Positions 35,767 to 43,261 of a stretch of DNA of 44,178 nt are shown in pieces. A program made the translations under genes and the position numbers. The notes beneath the pieces were generated by a model, which had not been told where the DNA came from, searched no databases, and saw only the letters and a program-made list of their open reading frames with translations. Origin of the DNA: a bacterium. Lineage in GTDB: Bacteria; B130-G9. Position 1 is the first letter of the stretch, and the number at the start of each line of letters is the position of its first letter. The stretch spans positions 1-44,178 of the forward strand of contig JAGHCW010000070.1 in assembly GCA_021160245.1 (NCBI GenBank). Direction: 5' to 3'.

Positions 35767-36642
35767 GTGAAAGTGCAGATTACGGGATATCAGAAGCGAC
35801 TACGAGGGCTTCTCCAAGCTCACGCGGTTCGCGCATCAGATGGAAGACTGTTTTCTGGACAAAGTTGACATTGATATGAGCCACGTTGGCTGGTTCGACG
35901 CCAATATGTGCGCACCTTTCGGCGCAGTCCTGCACAGGGCCAGGCAAGCGCTGAATGCAATCTCGATTGTTAATGTCCGGGACGATGTCGAGAAAATCCT
36001 ATGCAAAAATGGTCTTCTAAGAGATTATGGGCATATACTTGTGTTGGACACTTATGGGACGACCGTCCCATACAAGAGTTTTCAGCCGTCGGACCTACGA
36101 TACTTCAACCATTACATTAAGAAGTACTTGAGGGGCAAGGGAATACCGACCATGACGCAAGCGCTTCGCAAGAAGTTCTACGAGGGTATTATGGAGATAT
36201 TCACCAATGCCGCAACTCATTCAGAGACCAAGATGGGCATACATGCTTGCGGCCAGTTTTTCCCGAAGAAGAACAGTCTTGACTTCTCCATTGCGGACCT
36301 TGGCAGGGCATCCGCAAGAACATACTACGGAGTCTGGACATTGATCTGCCGGCTGGGGAAGCCATTCAATGGGCGATCTCCGAGCGAAACACGTCAAGAA
36401 CAGGGCCCGTTCCGGGTGGATCAGGACTAAAGATCCTGCGAGAATTCATAGCTTTGAACCGGGGCCGTATGCAGATCGTCTCTGACAGGGGCTATTGCGA
36501 GCTTAATTCCAACAGAAAGACATCGAGAATGATGGATTGGCCCTTTCCTGGCACAGTTGTTAACCTAGAATTTAACACTGCGGACCCTAAGTCATATAGA
36601 TTGGCTTCTGAGATGCATCACGAAAGACCTCCCATAATATAA
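35767..36642 (+). pseudogene. GHKL-type ATPase (HATPase_c) with STAS-like N-terminus, two frameshifts
   Basis: Reading begins at GTG 35767 (VKVQI). It shifts after an extra base near 35782 into RDIRSDYEGFSKLTRFAHQ, and shifts back near 36305, where one base is missing in a G-run. With both repaired the product is about 291 aa. The N-terminal part ends in SHVGWFDANMCAPFGAVL, a STAS-like strand-helix. The ATPase boxes are N (FYEGIMEIFTNAATHSETK), G1 (ADLG-x-GIRKN, split by the second shift) and G2 (GGSGLKILREFIALNRGRM). It resembles RsbW-type anti-sigma kinases and sensor-kinase ATPases. The two shifts restore the original frame overall. Sequencing error is possible; otherwise it is a recent pseudogene. 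It is 14 bp upstream of the STAS-like gene. Confidence 0.75.
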
Positions 36643-36656
36643 ATCGAGGGCTTAGC

Positions 36657-37019
36657 ATGAATGAGCAGATAACGATTAAGGTGTATGAAATCATTGGTGG
36701 CACAGACTGTATAGCCGCTGAGGACGGACAGACGGTTTATGAGCTCATCGTCAAGGCTTTCAGGAACGGTCGTCGCGTGAACCTGTCCTTTCAGAACATT
36801 AATTATATGATATCCGCCTTTTTGCACCCGGCGATTGGTCAGCTATATGGTGGCGAATTCGATGAGGAGTTCATAAACTCCCATTTAGATTATTCGGACA
36901 TGAGCGAGGATGACGAGGAAACGCTCAAGAGGGTGATCAGGGACGCAAAGGCCTACTTCAAGGACCCCCGGCGAGCGGAAGCCGCCCGAAAGAGTGTCTT
37001 GGAGGAAGATGATGGGTAA
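36657..37019 (+). CDS. STAS-like DUF4325 protein, 120 aa
   Basis: IKVYEIIGGTDCIAAEDGQT, YELIVKAFRNGRRVNLSFQN and MISAFLHPAIGQLYGG follow the DUF4325 pattern: strand, helix, strand, then a serine-containing loop leading into a helix, as in anti-sigma-factor antagonists. The C-terminus (SEDDEETLKRVIRDAKAYF) is helical. GAGGG lies six bases before the ATG. It sits between a GHKL ATPase and a PIN nuclease and overlaps the latter. A partner-switching role with the ATPase is inference from the RsbW/RsbV analogy. Confidence 0.85.
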   Translation: MNEQITIKVYEIIGGTDCIAAEDGQTVYELIVKAFRNGRRVNLSFQNINYMISAFLHPAIGQLYGGEFDEEFINSHLDYSDMSEDDEETLKRVIRDAKAYFKDPRRAEAARKSVLEEDDG

Positions 37020-37575
37020 GGCTCGGGCATTTCCGATTAAACATTGTGACTTTAGAAGACACCGCCGCCTGCTAATCGACACCAACGTCTGGATCTACCT
37101 CAATGGTCCCCAAGTGTGGGACAATCCCGAGAAGCGCGAATACTCCGAGGCACTTAAGAAGATCAGGCAAGCCAAATGTGACGTCTTCATCGACGTCGTG
37201 GTTCTTTCTGAGTTTATGAATAGATACTTGCGGATAAAATTCGAGGCGTGGAAGCCGGACAAGAGCGCCGAATTCAAGGACTTCCGAAGCAGCACGGATT
37301 ATCCTGCCGTGGCAAAGGATGTGGCCGACGCAGTGCGGGGCATTCTTAGAACTTGTCAGCTCGTGGATTCTGGATTTGAGTCGATCGACATGGAAGCTTT
37401 ACTCGCCGATTTCGAAGAAGGTCGCCGCGACTTCAATGATCAGATATTGGCTGAACTCTGCAAAACTAAGGATCTGACACTGATCACTCACGACAGCGAT
37501 TTCAAGGGCTACGGAATTACTGCTCTGACGGCAAACCAGAAGATGATCAAGGCCGATGACGAGTCGCCATCATAA
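37012..37575 (+). CDS. PIN-domain nuclease, VapC-like, 187 aa
   Basis: PIN domains are Mg-dependent ribonucleases. RLLIDTNVWIYL (D23) supplies the first acidic residue, VVVLSEFMNRYL the second (E near 66), and DFNDQILAELCKTKDLTLIT then HDSDF the C-terminal Asp pair, so the active site is complete. ATG 37012 has GGAGG at 37001-37005, six bases upstream, and overlaps the end of the STAS-like gene by 8 bp, implying coupled translation. No VapB-type antitoxin is present: the neighbours are the STAS-like protein and the ATPase, which may control it instead. Confidence 0.9.
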   Translation: MGKARAFPIKHCDFRRHRRLLIDTNVWIYLNGPQVWDNPEKREYSEALKKIRQAKCDVFIDVVVLSEFMNRYLRIKFEAWKPDKSAEFKDFRSSTDYPAVAKDVADAVRGILRTCQLVDSGFESIDMEALLADFEEGRRDFNDQILAELCKTKDLTLITHDSDFKGYGITALTANQKMIKADDESPS

Positions 37576-37615: not shown

Positions 37616-38891
37616 CTATAGCCCCGACGATTTCCGTAGAACCACAATGTATTCATATCTCATTGTGAGGTCTTTCTGGCCGACGACGTTTGAGGGGGAG
37701 TTCTGGGCGGGCATTCGTTTGTTGGAGATAGCGCGCACTTCTGTCTTGACGTGCTCGAAGCCATTGTGCTCAAAGAAGTCGGCGGAGACCTTGTCCGTCG
37801 GCAGCTCGATCCCCTTCACCCGTCGATTTCCGACGACGAAGCAGACGTATCCCCCAGTTTTCACTTTCTCGGCGATGATCTCAACCGCTCGATATAGATC
37901 AAAGTAGAACGAGAAGACATCTCTTGCGCGCCTCGCATCCTTCTCCGCAATCATGCCGACGAAATCGTCCAGCACGCGGGACGGCAGGTCGCGTGAGATG
38001 TCCCGCGCCTTGCCGCCGAGCGAGGTCTTATCGACCCAACCCCAGCCACCTGAGCGAGAGCCGTGAGAACTGACCGTAGGCCACAGTCGTTTTCGAGTCG
38101 CCGTAGGGAGGGGAAGTAACGACCAGATCGACTGATCCGTCGTCCACTGGGATGCCGCCAGTTATGTCCCTTTCCTCTAGCAGGAAGCGCCTCGCCCCTG
38201 GCGGATCGTCGCGATAGAATCGAGCAAGCATCCCTTCGTTTTTCAGAGCAATGTCACGAAATGTCTTGACAACGTTTAGGTTCTCTTCGTCATTCTTCTT
38301 TCGCAGGAGCTTGAACTCATTGAACCGGGTCCTAGAGACTCTCCTCACAGTCTCCGAGAAGGCGACCTGAAAGAAGTCCCGCAGACTGGCGTCCTCAATT
38401 GCAGCGATGGCTTCTCGCAGATTGGAGAGCTTCTGAATCACGTCATCGTGAAACCAATAGTGAATGTTATGAAACTCAACCGGCGAGGCGCTGGCGTGTT
38501 CGTATCGCGAGATGACGGCGGATAGGGCCTTTTCGATGTGCTGGGCGTCGATCGGAGTCGTCCTGACCCTTGATATCAGAACGGCCAGCGGGTTGATGTC
38601 GAAACCGGCATAGATCCTATTGTGAATCAGGCATTCCACCGCAGTTACGCCAGAGCCCACGAAGGGATCAAGAACCGCCGCCCCCTCTTGCGAATAATCA
38701 TCGATAAGCTCTCTCACAACCGCGAAATGCAGCATTGCCGGATAGGGGTGCAGGCCATGGACGCCGGTGGAGGCGCGAGTGCCTCTGAAGTCGAGGCGGG
38801 GTTCCCTGATCCTTTTGAATGGTTGTGACTCAGCCACTGTCGGATGCGAAACTAAAGCCGATTGTTGCGGGAGCAGGCTCGTTTGGGTCAT
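37616..38891 (-). pseudogene. DNA methyltransferase (TSPPY type), split by one frameshift
   Basis: Amino-group DNA methyltransferase, adenine-N6 or cytosine-N4. The SAM motif is VLDPFVGSG (residues 73-81) and the catalytic motif VVTSPPYGDSKT (259-264 for TSPPYG). The frame stops after RWLGLGR. One extra base at 38038-38039 explains this: removing it joins RWLG to WVDKTSLGGKARDIS and gives a 424-aa product ending YEYIVVLRKSSGL. Motif order (SAM site first, TSPPY later) resembles the alpha arrangement. No restriction enzyme is recognisable beside it, but an AbiJ-like gene lies 4 bp upstream. Sequencing error, programmed shift and real inactivation cannot be told apart from one sequence. Confidence 0.85.
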
Positions 38892-38895
38892 CGCC

Positions 38896-39735
38896 TCAAA
38901 GATTCACGCCGGCCTTCTGAGCCTTCTCAGTCAAGTAGTTCGCGAAAGCCGAACACGAGACAAGGAAGTATCGAGCGTTTTCAGAAGGTAGATTGGGCTC
39001 GTCCATCAGCGCGTGTCTTATGCCGTCTGTTTTGTTCGTGTACTTGTAGATCCACTTGAATCCCTCTTTTAGGTCATCATTCAGACCTATCTTCCGTTTT
39101 ACGACCTTCAACGCTTGGCTCAACGTGGCTTTCTCGTTGCCAGCGATGACTTTGCAGATTGCTTCAACTGCCGAGATGGATTCTTTAATCGCGTTTCTGT
39201 AATCGGGATCTTCCCTGTCTGCAAATCGCGACCTGGCAATCCTGAAGTGTTCTCTAACACCTAGTACTGGGTTGCTGTCTATGACCTCCTCAATGGCCTT
39301 GATCTCTAATTCATTTGTGATCGGCGCAATCAAATCGCCGATGAAGCGGTAGCCGGAAACCTCCCTCTCAAGCACCTTATTACAGTGGATCTTGAAGATA
39401 TTTCTCCGTATAGTGTTGTCGTTTTGGTAAGCAAACTGAATTAGATCGAACACTTCTCTCCACAGCGCATTCGAGAACCATGCCTTAAACTCTCGAAACG
39501 CATTGATCAATGGATTGGGGATCTCGTCCGCGGGGCGCTTAAGGAAGTCAATCCACAACCTGATCACGAGACGCGCGACCGCGCTTTCATTCACGGAGTC
39601 ATACGCCTGATCCTTTGGGAAGAACGTGCTATAAAACGCATTCCACAATGATGTCCTGAGATCATCATCCATGCACTCAAGCTGAATCTGCTTGGGCTGT
39701 GTATAGCCATACCTTTCCGAGAAGCTCTTCTCCAT
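38896..39735 (-). CDS. AbiJ-like abortive-infection protein (AbiJ N-terminal domain plus HEPN-like C-terminus), 279 aa
   Basis: The start FSERYGYTQPKQIQLECMDD, then LRTSLWNAFYSTF, is the signature of AbiJ-type N-terminal domains. The C-terminal half, DYRNAIKESISAVEAICKVI, ATLSQALKVVKR and KTDGIRHALMDEPNLPSENA, then YFLVSCSAFANYL, is an Abi C-terminal HEPN-type helical domain, typically an RNase toxin. The family is known from phage-defence islands. It lies 18 bp after the HEPN gene and 4 bp before the methyltransferase, so all three are likely on one transcript. The ribosome-binding site is weak (GGCGG). Confidence 0.85.
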   Translation of the reverse strand: MEKSFSERYGYTQPKQIQLECMDDDLRTSLWNAFYSTFFPKDQAYDSVNESAVARLVIRLWIDFLKRPADEIPNPLINAFREFKAWFSNALWREVFDLIQFAYQNDNTIRRNIFKIHCNKVLEREVSGYRFIGDLIAPITNELEIKAIEEVIDSNPVLGVREHFRIARSRFADREDPDYRNAIKESISAVEAICKVIAGNEKATLSQALKVVKRKIGLNDDLKEGFKWIYKYTNKTDGIRHALMDEPNLPSENARYFLVSCSAFANYLTEKAQKAGVNL

Positions 39736-39753: not shown

Positions 39754-40161
39754 CTACAGGACGTCGCTTGGAAGATAAGACTGAATCCACTCGATCACCT
39801 GTTTGGCATTCGCGATGGCTTGTTCTGCCTCATCGCGGGTGACCGGAACTGTGGGGCCGGGGTAGCGCGTCTCTACGGCAAAAGCCGAGAGAATATCTGC
39901 GTCATTGATAGCACTCACGTCCACGTTTGGTAAGGCCTGACAAGCCTCCATTAGCTCAGTCAGATCGTGAGTCTTACGAAACTCAACCTCGTGCCAGATC
40001 AGCAATGCCTTCAGGGCTTTTTCCGCAGCTTGTTGGCAATGAAATGCAATGGCACTCGGCCAACCATCGACCCGGAGAAGCTTGCTTGCGGTCTCAAGGT
40101 CTTTACTACTATGCTGCATCCATTCCGCTACAAGCAGACGTTTGGCCTCGCTATCACCCAT
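39754..40161 (-). CDS. HEPN-domain protein, MNT-HEPN type, 135 aa
   Basis: AIAFHCQQAAEKALKALLIW, RKTHDLTELMEAC and AVETRYPGPTVPVTRDEAEQ are the conserved blocks of the HEPN family PF05168. Members are usually the partner of a minimal nucleotidyltransferase encoded just upstream, as here. The nucleotidyltransferase stop overlaps this start region. Two ATGs are possible, 40176 and 40161; I prefer 40161 (MGDSEAK), which overlaps by 8 bp. In characterised pairs the HEPN partner is an RNase toxin and the nucleotidyltransferase neutralises it by adding nucleotides. That activity is not shown here. Confidence 0.88.
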   Translation of the reverse strand: MGDSEAKRLLVAEWMQHSSKDLETASKLLRVDGWPSAIAFHCQQAAEKALKALLIWHEVEFRKTHDLTELMEACQALPNVDVSAINDADILSAFAVETRYPGPTVPVTRDEAEQAIANAKQVIEWIQSYLPSDVL

Positions 40162-40516
40162 ACAGCACCCGCCCATGCTTCAGCGCGGTGTAGAAGATCG
40201 AGCCGACAACGTCCTTGAAACGATCGAACTGCTCTTGGGATTTGACGAGTATGTCGAATGGAAAAGGCAGCCCGCGAAGCTTGCGGCGTATCTGCACGCT
40301 TTGCGCCCTCGGGTTCTCGGCATCCTGCGTGATGATTAAGAGGTCTATGTCGCTATCGGGGCCCATCTCATCGGTGGCTGCGGAGCCAAAAAGAAATATC
40401 TTGCTGGGCCTAACCACCTTGCGCACGCGAAGCACGATCTCTTCCTTGACCCTCTCGCTCAGCGCCGTCAAATCCCTACTCTCGTTTTGATTCATTTCTT
40501 GGTCGCCTTTTGACAT
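40154..40516 (-). CDS. Minimal nucleotidyltransferase (MNT antitoxin type), 120 aa
   Basis: The polymerase-beta-like motif is FLFGSAATDEMGPDSDIDLL, with the GS and the D-x-D metal ligands intact. FDILVKSQEQFDR supplies the third acidic strand. I start at ATG 40516, preceded by GAGAGGG. The upstream ATG at 40540 lies inside the end of the exbD gene, without a ribosome-binding site. It pairs with the overlapping HEPN gene as a toxin-antitoxin module. The start within a TolR/ExbD operon, with no gap, is unusual. Confidence 0.88.
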   Translation of the reverse strand: MSKGDQEMNQNESRDLTALSERVKEEIVLRVRKVVRPSKIFLFGSAATDEMGPDSDIDLLIITQDAENPRAQSVQIRRKLRGLPFPFDILVKSQEQFDRFKDVVGSIFYTALKHGRVLYG

Positions 40517-40529
40517 TTCAACGTCCCTC

Positions 40530-40937
40530 TCACCTCTCATCTGACGGCTCGGTTAAAAGATAGACATTGTCGATGCCGGAGCGGCGGATGCTGGAGAGGA
40601 GCGCCATGACCCGGCCATAGTCGATGCCCCTGTCGGCGGCTAGCATCACGGGGGCCGAGGGGGAGCTGGCGAGGCTCTTGCTCAGAACGACTCCAATGTC
40701 CGACAGATTCACCATCTTCTCCTGGACGAAGACCTGACCATCCTTGCGAAGGGACACGATTACCGCCTGACCCGTCTGTCGCTTCTGTAGCGTCTCTTTC
40801 GGTAGGCCGATTTCTAGACCATACCTGATCGACGGCGCCGTGAGGATGAATATGACAAGAAGCATCAGCATGACGTCAACGATCGGCGTTATGTTGATGT
40901 CCGAAATCGTAGCACGCTTGCGCCTCGTGAGCCTCAT
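40530..40937 (-). CDS. ExbD/TolR-family biopolymer transport protein, 135 aa
   Basis: Inner-membrane proton-channel partner of ExbB/TolQ. Short cytoplasmic start (RLTRRKRATISDINITPIVD), then one transmembrane helix carrying the functional Asp (VDVMLMLLVIFILTAP). The periplasmic part has VMLAADRGIDYGRVMALLSS, as in TolR. Length is normal. It follows the ExbB-like gene after 2 bp. No TonB, TolA, TolB or Pal gene is visible nearby, so the outer-membrane end of the system is not defined here. Confidence 0.92.
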   Translation of the reverse strand: MRLTRRKRATISDINITPIVDVMLMLLVIFILTAPSIRYGLEIGLPKETLQKRQTGQAVIVSLRKDGQVFVQEKMVNLSDIGVVLSKSLASSPSAPVMLAADRGIDYGRVMALLSSIRRSGIDNVYLLTEPSDER

Positions 40938-41923: not shown

Positions 41924-43261
41924 ATGTACTGGAGGACTCTTTCGGAATTGAAGCAATCTGACGAGAGGCTGGAACCGCGCGGCGTGGTTCTTGTCGTGGA
42001 TGACGCTGATTCGGTGGTGCAGATGACGCCGGGTCTAGCCGAGGCCGGCTATGAGGTCATCAGTTTTCGTGAGTCGGAGCAGATTGCATCCTGCCTCAGC
42101 CGGAGAGCATGCGACGTGGTCATCGCCGATCTGGAGTTCTGCCAGGGCCAGGGATTTAATATCTTTGATAGCGTTGCTCACGATGAAAACAGCATCGCCA
42201 CGATCGTCGTCTCGTCAAAGCCCACTCTCGGCAAGGTTTTGAACTCATGGAACCGCGACGCATCGTTTTTTCTGAAGAAGCCGCTCGATTTCGAGCGCAT
42301 GCTCAACGCGGTCAAGAAGGCGGTGGAGAACAAACGCTTTTACGAGCGCATGGTCAGCCGTCTTGATGAGCTTCAGAAGTCCAATGATGAGCTTTTGCAG
42401 GAGAGCAAAGAACTCAAGCGGAGTCGGAAGCAATTTAGGACTATCGAGAAGATCGCCAAGTCGATTGCGAGCTCCTTGGAATTGGACAAGGTCCTGAGCG
42501 GAATACTTGAGAGTATCGCTCACGCCAGTCGTTTTGACCGCATTCTCCTCTCCATGATTGATTGGAATCAAGAGGTCGAAGAGGCGGCCATGGCAATGGG
42601 GGTGAGCAAGGACCAATACGAGACAACTCTGTCCGAGATGACTTGGCCCCTTGCCGGCGAGGATAGGGCGCCATGGGCGGACCAGGTTGTGCATTCAGGG
42701 AAGAGCTACATATCCGACGGGACGTTTGGCGATGGCGCCGTTTCGGAAAAAGCTGCTCGGCTGTTCCCGGGTCCAATGGCCAAGATACCTCTAGTTGTAA
42801 AAGATGTTGTAGTCGGTACGATCACGGTTGACAACATTATCTCCAAACGCCCGATCAGCCAGGAGCACACGGAGGTCATAGAGCGGTTCTCGGAATATGC
42901 GGCAATTGCTATAATGAACGCGAAGCTCTACATGCGAGCGGTTGAGGCGCAGGACGAGCTTAAGAAGGCTCAGGGCAAGCTGCTTGAGGCGGAGCGATTG
43001 GTGACCATTGAGCGACTCGTTGCGACAGTAAGTCACGAGATAAACAATCCGCTGTGCAGCATTCTGCTTTCCGCGCAGATGCTAGAGACAATGGTTGCAG
43101 ATGAGGGGGCGCCCATCAGTAAGAAGGCCAAAGCCATACTTGCGGACGTGGAGCAGATATCCGCAATAGTTGGCAAGCTCCAGAGCATTCAGAAGGCCTC
43201 GCCCATGCTCACTACGGAGACGTGCGACATGTTTGATCTTGATGGGATTGAGGATAACTAG
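41924..43261 (+). CDS. REC-GAF-HisKA signalling protein lacking a kinase ATPase domain, 445 aa
   Basis: Order: response-regulator receiver (residues 20-130) with D26-D27, phospho-acceptor D69 (VVIADLEF), S97/S98 and K118 (FFLKKP). Next come a coiled coil (140-175), a GAF domain (about 178-335, KIAKSIASSLELDKVLSGIL to EYAAIAIMNAKLY) and a second coiled coil. Last is a HisKA dimerisation motif with the phosphorylatable H371 (LVATVSHEINNPLCSILLSA). The protein ends 75 residues later with no N, G1 or G2 box. It may be a phosphotransfer or scaffold protein that needs a separate kinase. The start may be TTG 41948, which has GGAGG upstream. Confidence 0.85.
   Translation: MYWRTLSELKQSDERLEPRGVVLVVDDADSVVQMTPGLAEAGYEVISFRESEQIASCLSRRACDVVIADLEFCQGQGFNIFDSVAHDENSIATIVVSSKPTLGKVLNSWNRDASFFLKKPLDFERMLNAVKKAVENKRFYERMVSRLDELQKSNDELLQESKELKRSRKQFRTIEKIAKSIASSLELDKVLSGILESIAHASRFDRILLSMIDWNQEVEEAAMAMGVSKDQYETTLSEMTWPLAGEDRAPWADQVVHSGKSYISDGTFGDGAVSEKAARLFPGPMAKIPLVVKDVVVGTITVDNIISKRPISQEHTEVIERFSEYAAIAIMNAKLYMRAVEAQDELKKAQGKLLEAERLVTIERLVATVSHEINNPLCSILLSAQMLETMVADEGAPISKKAKAILADVEQISAIVGKLQSIQKASPMLTTETCDMFDLDGIEDN

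Follow-up and report, generated by a model that had tools for sequence, protein, structure and literature searches.

The three-gene cassette at positions 35767-37575 of the DNA analysed here (the window, a 44,178-nucleotide stretch of a bacterial contig) is, judged from its sequence, very likely a VapKSC anti-phage toxin-antitoxin system, and we extend the same high confidence to this reading as a whole, with the mechanism set out below and a kinase gene that is broken in this assembly. The first-pass annotation of this DNA had taken the layout to be undescribed, but it is already published as VapKSC (Chambers et al., EMBO J, 9 June 2026, PMC13373217; structure PDB 9Z7O), and the system was thus found again independently, from sequence alone, a few months after that publication. 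The regulatory idea offered then was a good one, and the interest that remains lies in a form of the cassette embedded in BREX operons and in VapS-VapC pairs that have no kinase. The known range of VapKSC now also includes a candidate phylum and possibly archaea, the latter on short metagenome contigs.

The published work covers CapK/CapS and the related three-gene VapKSC, which it finds 289 times, with another immune gene less than 10 kb away in 36% of cases (PMC13373217). Escherichia VapC is toxic, and its toxicity needs D28; VapS neutralises it and requires its C-terminal region to do so, a phosphomimetic S48E VapS neither binds VapC nor neutralises it, and VapS leaves the active-site metal of VapC in place in the published structure (PMC13373217). 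The Escherichia operon protects against phage Bas42 by about 2 logs, and this protection is abolished by VapS S48A, VapC D28A or VapK F54A, each alone (PMC13373217). That VapK phosphorylates VapS was deduced there from the CapK/CapS pair, with no direct demonstration, and activation of VapK by ssDNA was likewise deduced, F54 being the proposed DNA-binding residue (PMC13373217).

The antitoxin and toxin genes

The window carries the VapKSC gene order of kinase, STAS and PIN, with the kinase gene disrupted (Table 1). The genes are as tightly packed as first described, with 14 bp from the ATPase stop codon to the STAS start codon and an overlap of 8 bp between the STAS and PIN genes. The assignment of the middle gene to DUF4325 also holds, its PF14213 match lying above the Pfam cut-off, as does the complete active site attributed to the PIN gene, whose PF01850 match is above the cut-off and whose acidic residues D23, E67, D140, D143 and D161 are invariant in 28 homologues. 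PADLOC and NCBIfam contained no model matching the kinase pieces or VapS, and NCBIfam gave weak generic VapC matches, below the cut-off, for the window VapC.

Table 1. Predicted features of the vapKSC cassette and its neighbours in the window
Feature	Coordinates	Strand	Evidence
vapK: GHKL kinase with N-terminal STAS-like domain, disrupted	35767..36642	+	ORF reading, relatives' HMM, coding model
Longest open piece of disrupted vapK (196 codons), with the N box, a G1 box cut by the frame change and the G2 region in another frame	35840..36430	+	ORF list, alignment to relative
vapS: STAS-like (DUF4325) antitoxin, 120 aa	36657..37019	+	PF14213 E=1.6e-11; PDB 9Z7O VapS E=1.2e-25; STAS-like fold
Ser53 codon; equivalent of phosphorylated Ser48 of Escherichia VapS	36813..36815	+	Alignment to 9Z7O
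vapC: PIN-domain RNase toxin, 187 aa, ATG start	37012..37575	+	PF01850 E=7.4e-10; PDB 9Z7O VapC E=4.4e-13
Asp23 codon; equivalent of catalytic Asp28 of Escherichia VapC	37078..37080	+	Alignment to 9Z7O
Type II DNA methyltransferase, split by frameshift ~38051; not part of VapKSC	37616..38891	-	PADLOC MTase_II on both halves; coding model
AbiJ_NTD4 protein, PADLOC candidate PDC-S32	38896..39735	-	PADLOC, Pfam
HEPN (39754-40176) and MNT nucleotidyltransferase (40154-40540)	39754..40540	-	PF05168 E=7.1e-29, PF01909 E=7e-11

Both intact proteins lead to the same published structure. A profile of the VapS family matched Escherichia VapS (9Z7O chain A) far above all other PDB entries, and Escherichia VapC (9Z7O chain C) was the sole PDB match of the PIN profile, although the window VapC is only weakly similar to this solved protein. 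We infer that the numbering of the VapS chain in 9Z7O is offset by a tag. The predicted model of the window VapS (mean pLDDT 80) resembles STAS proteins, namely the SLC26A11 STAS domain, RsbS, RsbV and SpoIIAA, at a modest Z of 6-7. Foldseek also returned aminopeptidases for this model, which we set aside as partial matches to larger proteins, RsbS, RsbV and SpoIIAA being the ones that share its size and topology. Beyond the STAS-like domain the 120 residues hold only a C-terminal helix, the single-chain model placing helices at 84-102 and 104-116, the second of these at low confidence.

This short architecture bears on whether the first two genes could instead be a transcriptional regulator pair of the CapKS type that happens to stand beside an unrelated PIN gene. 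CapK and CapS are likewise a GHKL kinase and a STAS protein adjoining immune genes, but CapS has a winged-helix DNA-binding domain and CapK an N-terminal HTH, neither of which was found in the window VapS or in the intact VapK relatives; moreover, in the PDB search the window STAS protein found VapS, and it is encoded by a gene that overlaps vapC. We regard such a regulator pair as extremely unlikely.

Position 53 of the window VapS would be the site through which the kinase acts. Ser or Thr occupies this position in 28 of 30 VapS relatives and is kept wherever an intact kinase is present, and the two exceptions are cyanobacterial loci for which the genome search found no kinase homologue or just a fragment.

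The kinase family and the proposed switch

Kinases of the related loci give a picture of what an intact VapK would look like. The residues of the N, G1 and G2 boxes are invariant in 25 kinases, and the intact relatives, of 286-300 aa, have a STAS-like domain right at the start; HATPase_c was matched in 23 of 25 and Pfam STAS in one. When the structure of one intact relative's kinase was predicted (mean pLDDT 88.5), its best structural match was SpoIIAB, with five entries at Z 10.2-10.7 covering nearly the whole SpoIIAB chain, while the rest of the match list stood at Z 8.3 or below, the entry at 8.3 being another anti-sigma factor and histidine kinases and topoisomerases falling below 8. This modelled SpoIIAB-like fold favours a kinase that phosphorylates Ser/Thr in a STAS protein above the other activities known for GHKL proteins. 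The kinase and STAS folds of a partner switch are found, together with a phosphorylatable Ser. No sigma-factor gene was noticed next to the cassette, and in the homologous system the target is VapC.

If the family works as published, VapS would bind the RNase toxin VapC and keep it silent, with the C-terminal helix of VapS near the active site. VapK, as a SpoIIAB-class kinase, would be activated by a trigger that is probably single-stranded DNA arising from phage infection or DNA damage, and triggered VapK would then phosphorylate the conserved Ser/Thr of VapS (Ser53 in the window). Phosphorylated VapS would release VapC, which would stop growth. The earlier proposal, in which the ATPase gates the PIN RNase by phosphorylating the STAS protein, matches this published logic for the family, but the copy assembled in the window cannot be triggered in this way, because its kinase gene is broken. 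If this copy acts at all, it would do so simply as VapS paired with VapC, without a kinase to trigger it. Such a pair would be harmless to its host since the kinase is an activator and not a restraint; loss of the antitoxin would not be tolerable.

A disrupted kinase gene

The first gene had been read as an intact GHKL ATPase. Its family stands, by homology to the SpoIIAB-like VapK, but the open reading frame does not, since the frame shifts twice and translation from 35767 meets many stop codons. Aligned to an intact 289-aa relative, the window matches residues 2-179 in one frame, to 36304, and residues 180-283 in another, from 36307, so that the frame change falls inside the ATP-binding G1 box. 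A coding-statistics model that takes no homology input placed a frameshift at 36303, and an HMM of the relatives' kinases matches the window gene in two frames, at 4.2e-67 and 2.5e-37. The second shift likely lies near 35785, where it separates the GTG start from the rest of the gene, because the first codons (35767-35784) share a frame with the 3' half. Besides the longest open piece in Table 1, the other longest piece lies in the frame ending at 36642, and no intact, translatable VapK is present in the window assembly. Since VapS and VapC match by sequence, the window VapK appears to be a decayed or misassembled member of the VapKSC family.

Which of these two it is depends on how far the assembly can be trusted. 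The genome, of 3.43 Mb, is in 244 contigs, and a survey with a coding-potential model, which took in the window together with 20 contigs sampled from the genome (266 kb in all), gave 19 candidate frameshifts, or about 0.7 per 10 kb, some of which are surely false. Isolated indels are therefore not rare, and the break in vapK could be an assembly error. If the frameshifts in vapK and in the methyltransferase gene were sequencing or assembly errors, then the organism would carry a working VapKSC, and this would fit the intact state of vapS and vapC, the position of both vapK shifts in or beside short G runs, and the fact that the two together restore the original frame. On the other hand, these shifts form a local cluster, two within about 520 bp of vapK and one in the adjacent gene, while other long genes of the window look open, and kinase loss is seen at other, unrelated loci too. 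We put the chance of such an error at a little under even.

The defence-type neighbours noted in the first description are confirmed as a DNA methyltransferase, an AbiJ_NTD4 protein and a HEPN plus MNT pair, all on the opposite strand. Two adjacent defence-type genes, vapK and the methyltransferase gene, are broken, and most long genes of the window are open. Further on, at 41924-43261 (+), a Response_reg-GAF-HisKA protein ends after HisKA with no ATPase domain matched and is possibly interrupted.

Distribution of the cassette

A four-sequence VapS alignment, run once against GTDB genome contigs, yielded 28 loci in Coatesbacteria, Chlorobi, Thermodesulfobacteriota, Cyanobacteria, Delongbacteria, Cloacimonadota, Verrucomicrobia, Nitrosomonas, an actinobacterial genome and others. 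Two of these are on short contigs of archaeal genomes (Methanothrix, L023, and Thermoplasmata, L027), where mis-binning is possible. The nearest relative with a cassette, among those searched, is a metagenome-assembled genome of Candidatus Coatesbacteria in the same family (G002, locus L011 = L021), and its kinase is the intact 289-aa protein. A PIN profile match adjoins VapS in 27 of the 28 loci and a kinase profile match occurs in 25, one of them just a fragment; the overlap between vapS and vapC was measured in 28 cassettes and is 8-17 bp in 25 of them. The co-occurrence of the three families across genomes is thus borne out in many phyla and is not a peculiarity of this genome, and because ATPase and PIN homologues adjoin most STAS relatives across phyla, we conclude that the trio is not a product of chance.

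Mobile elements carried few relatives. One VapKSC was found on plasmids, on plasmid P5 of Deinococcus gobiensis; viral contigs scanned with the four-sequence VapS alignment gave no relatives, and phages gave two weak matches to Escherichia VapS and no others. In a broader sample, DUF4325 is present in 39 of 386 genomes, and eleven close VapS-like copies in this sample have a PIN gene adjoining in nine cases, one of these nine PIN genes being split and another truncated.

Other DUF4325 proteins are built differently. Single-chain proteins of about 345-435 aa, in which an HTH-like N-terminal region and a GHKL-like ATPase region precede a C-terminal DUF4325 domain, occur in L003, L004, L005, L006, L007, L010, L013, L052, L053, L060, L062, L064 and L068; their phosphosite region reads G-Q-(G/A)-F, with no Ser/Thr, and they seem to be relatives of the kinase/STAS pair joined in one protein. 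Two further loci (L067 276-2332 and L009 326-1704) are GHKL ATPase and DUF4325 pairs that have no PIN gene, and the pair in L067 is followed by a protein, hydrophobic over a stretch near its N-terminus, that could be a different effector.

Repeated loss of the kinase

The kinase has been lost or broken in at least four places, the window being one. In a cyanobacterial clade of three loci (L042, L043 and L046; support 100/100) vapS and vapC are kept and no intact kinase is recognisable; searches for the kinase through the whole genomes gave no homologue in one and weak or partial matches in the other two. Pro stands at the phosphosite in two of these three VapS proteins. Comparison of L042 with L046 gave a dN/dS of about 0.3-0.4 for VapS and 0.25-0.3 for VapC, which points to purifying selection. 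At a second vapSC locus of one of these cyanobacteria, Argonema antarcticum (L088, 7082-8252, -), a 77-aa open piece matches the C-terminal part of vapK; the place of L088 in the tree is unsure owing to a long branch. The VapS and VapC of L088 are closer to the Escherichia type than are the other cyanobacterial ones. At L037 only the N-terminus of the kinase is left, and vapC is cut short as well. Repeated loss of the kinase with retention of antitoxin and toxin is what would be expected if, as in the published mechanism, the kinase is only the trigger, and this pattern is absent from the main text of PMC13373217.

The cyanobacterial clade, with a vapS and vapC retained under purifying selection and no recognisable intact kinase in the genome, is also what one might expect if the cassette were an ordinary VapBC-type pair, with the DUF4325 protein simply its antitoxin and the kinase a chance neighbour. 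We consider this very unlikely, since in 25 of 28 loci (a truncated remnant included) the kinase stands ahead of vapS, in unchanged order and with the same tight spacing, the phosphosite has been preserved alongside every intact kinase, and published mutants show the kinase to be important for phage protection (PMC13373217). The gene upstream of vapC is, in addition, a DUF4325/STAS-like gene and not a small DNA-binding VapB-type antitoxin gene. The remark that the PIN gene has no VapB-type antitoxin was correct to this extent, but the STAS protein itself would be the antitoxin, as expected of VapKSC.

VapKSC inside BREX operons

In six loci (L028, L030, L034, L038, L040 and L048) vapKSC stands between BREX genes, flanked by a PglX-type methyltransferase and, further on, a BREX helicase. 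The extended form of one of these (L081, from L040) reads BrxF, BrxC, PglX, AAA protein, VapKSC, BrxH, PglZ and BrxA, the BREX genes having been called by PADLOC, and this BREX system is complete, with every core gene present. In all of L080, L081, L082 and L083, VapKSC lies inside the BREX operon between PglX and the helicase. L082 also has a second PglX-type gene and a MADS3-like AAA ATPase 3' of the cassette, and the Nitrosomonas genome of L038 has a second, non-BREX vapKSC (L084 4588-6361). Short BREX fragments lie beside the cassette in three further loci (L026, L029 and L032), and all nine BREX-associated loci fall in one supported clade of 11 (97/98) that includes several phyla, which suggests horizontal spread. 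Elsewhere, L025 adjoins a type I restriction operon, and L033 a type I restriction subunit gene and a DS8-like gene.

A recent survey of BREX counts PIN RNases among the embedded backup effectors, as one of the less frequent kinds (Rakesh and Krishnan, NAR 2026, PMC12839542), and its main text makes no mention of STAS or GHKL partners. In the main text of PMC13373217 the term BREX appears in the introduction and references only and PglX nowhere, so that VapKSC cassettes between BREX genes are an observation that this main text does not contain. Some of the PIN nucleases reported inside BREX operons are kinase-gated VapKSC modules, which suggests a role in backup immunity. More speculatively, and with odds that we place well below even, VapKSC in the BREX lineage might be a dead-man switch that kills the cell when BREX fails, while elsewhere the kinase would have been shed repeatedly and the VapS-VapC pairs left behind would persist as simpler toxin-antitoxin modules with another trigger.

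Comparison with known systems

The window cassette is most like the published VapKSC (PMC13373217), with which it shares the order of kinase, STAS and PIN genes, homology of VapS and VapC, the phosphoserine and catalytic residues, and immune genes nearby; it differs in its frameshifted vapK, in its low identity to the Escherichia proteins and in its uncultured host, from the family of the Candidatus Coatesbacteria genome. CapK/CapS offers a similar GHKL kinase with a STAS substrate bearing a conserved Ser, both SpoIIAB/SpoIIAA-like, but CapK begins with an HTH, the winged HTH of CapS binds DNA, and the output is transcription and not an RNase. SpoIIAB/SpoIIAA and RsbW/RsbV agree with it in the folds of the kinase and the STAS protein and in where the phosphorylated serine lies, but there the kinase inhibits a sigma factor, whereas in VapKSC it is the STAS protein that inhibits, and its target is a toxin. 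The type II VapBC systems also have a PIN RNase toxin with an overlapping antitoxin gene upstream, but the VapKSC antitoxin is a kinase-regulated STAS protein in place of the DNA-binding VapB. Finally, the nucleases embedded in BREX operons (PMC12839542) are likewise RNase effectors with a proposed backup role, but the PIN genes described here are recognised as parts of VapKSC, and the window copy lies outside any BREX operon.
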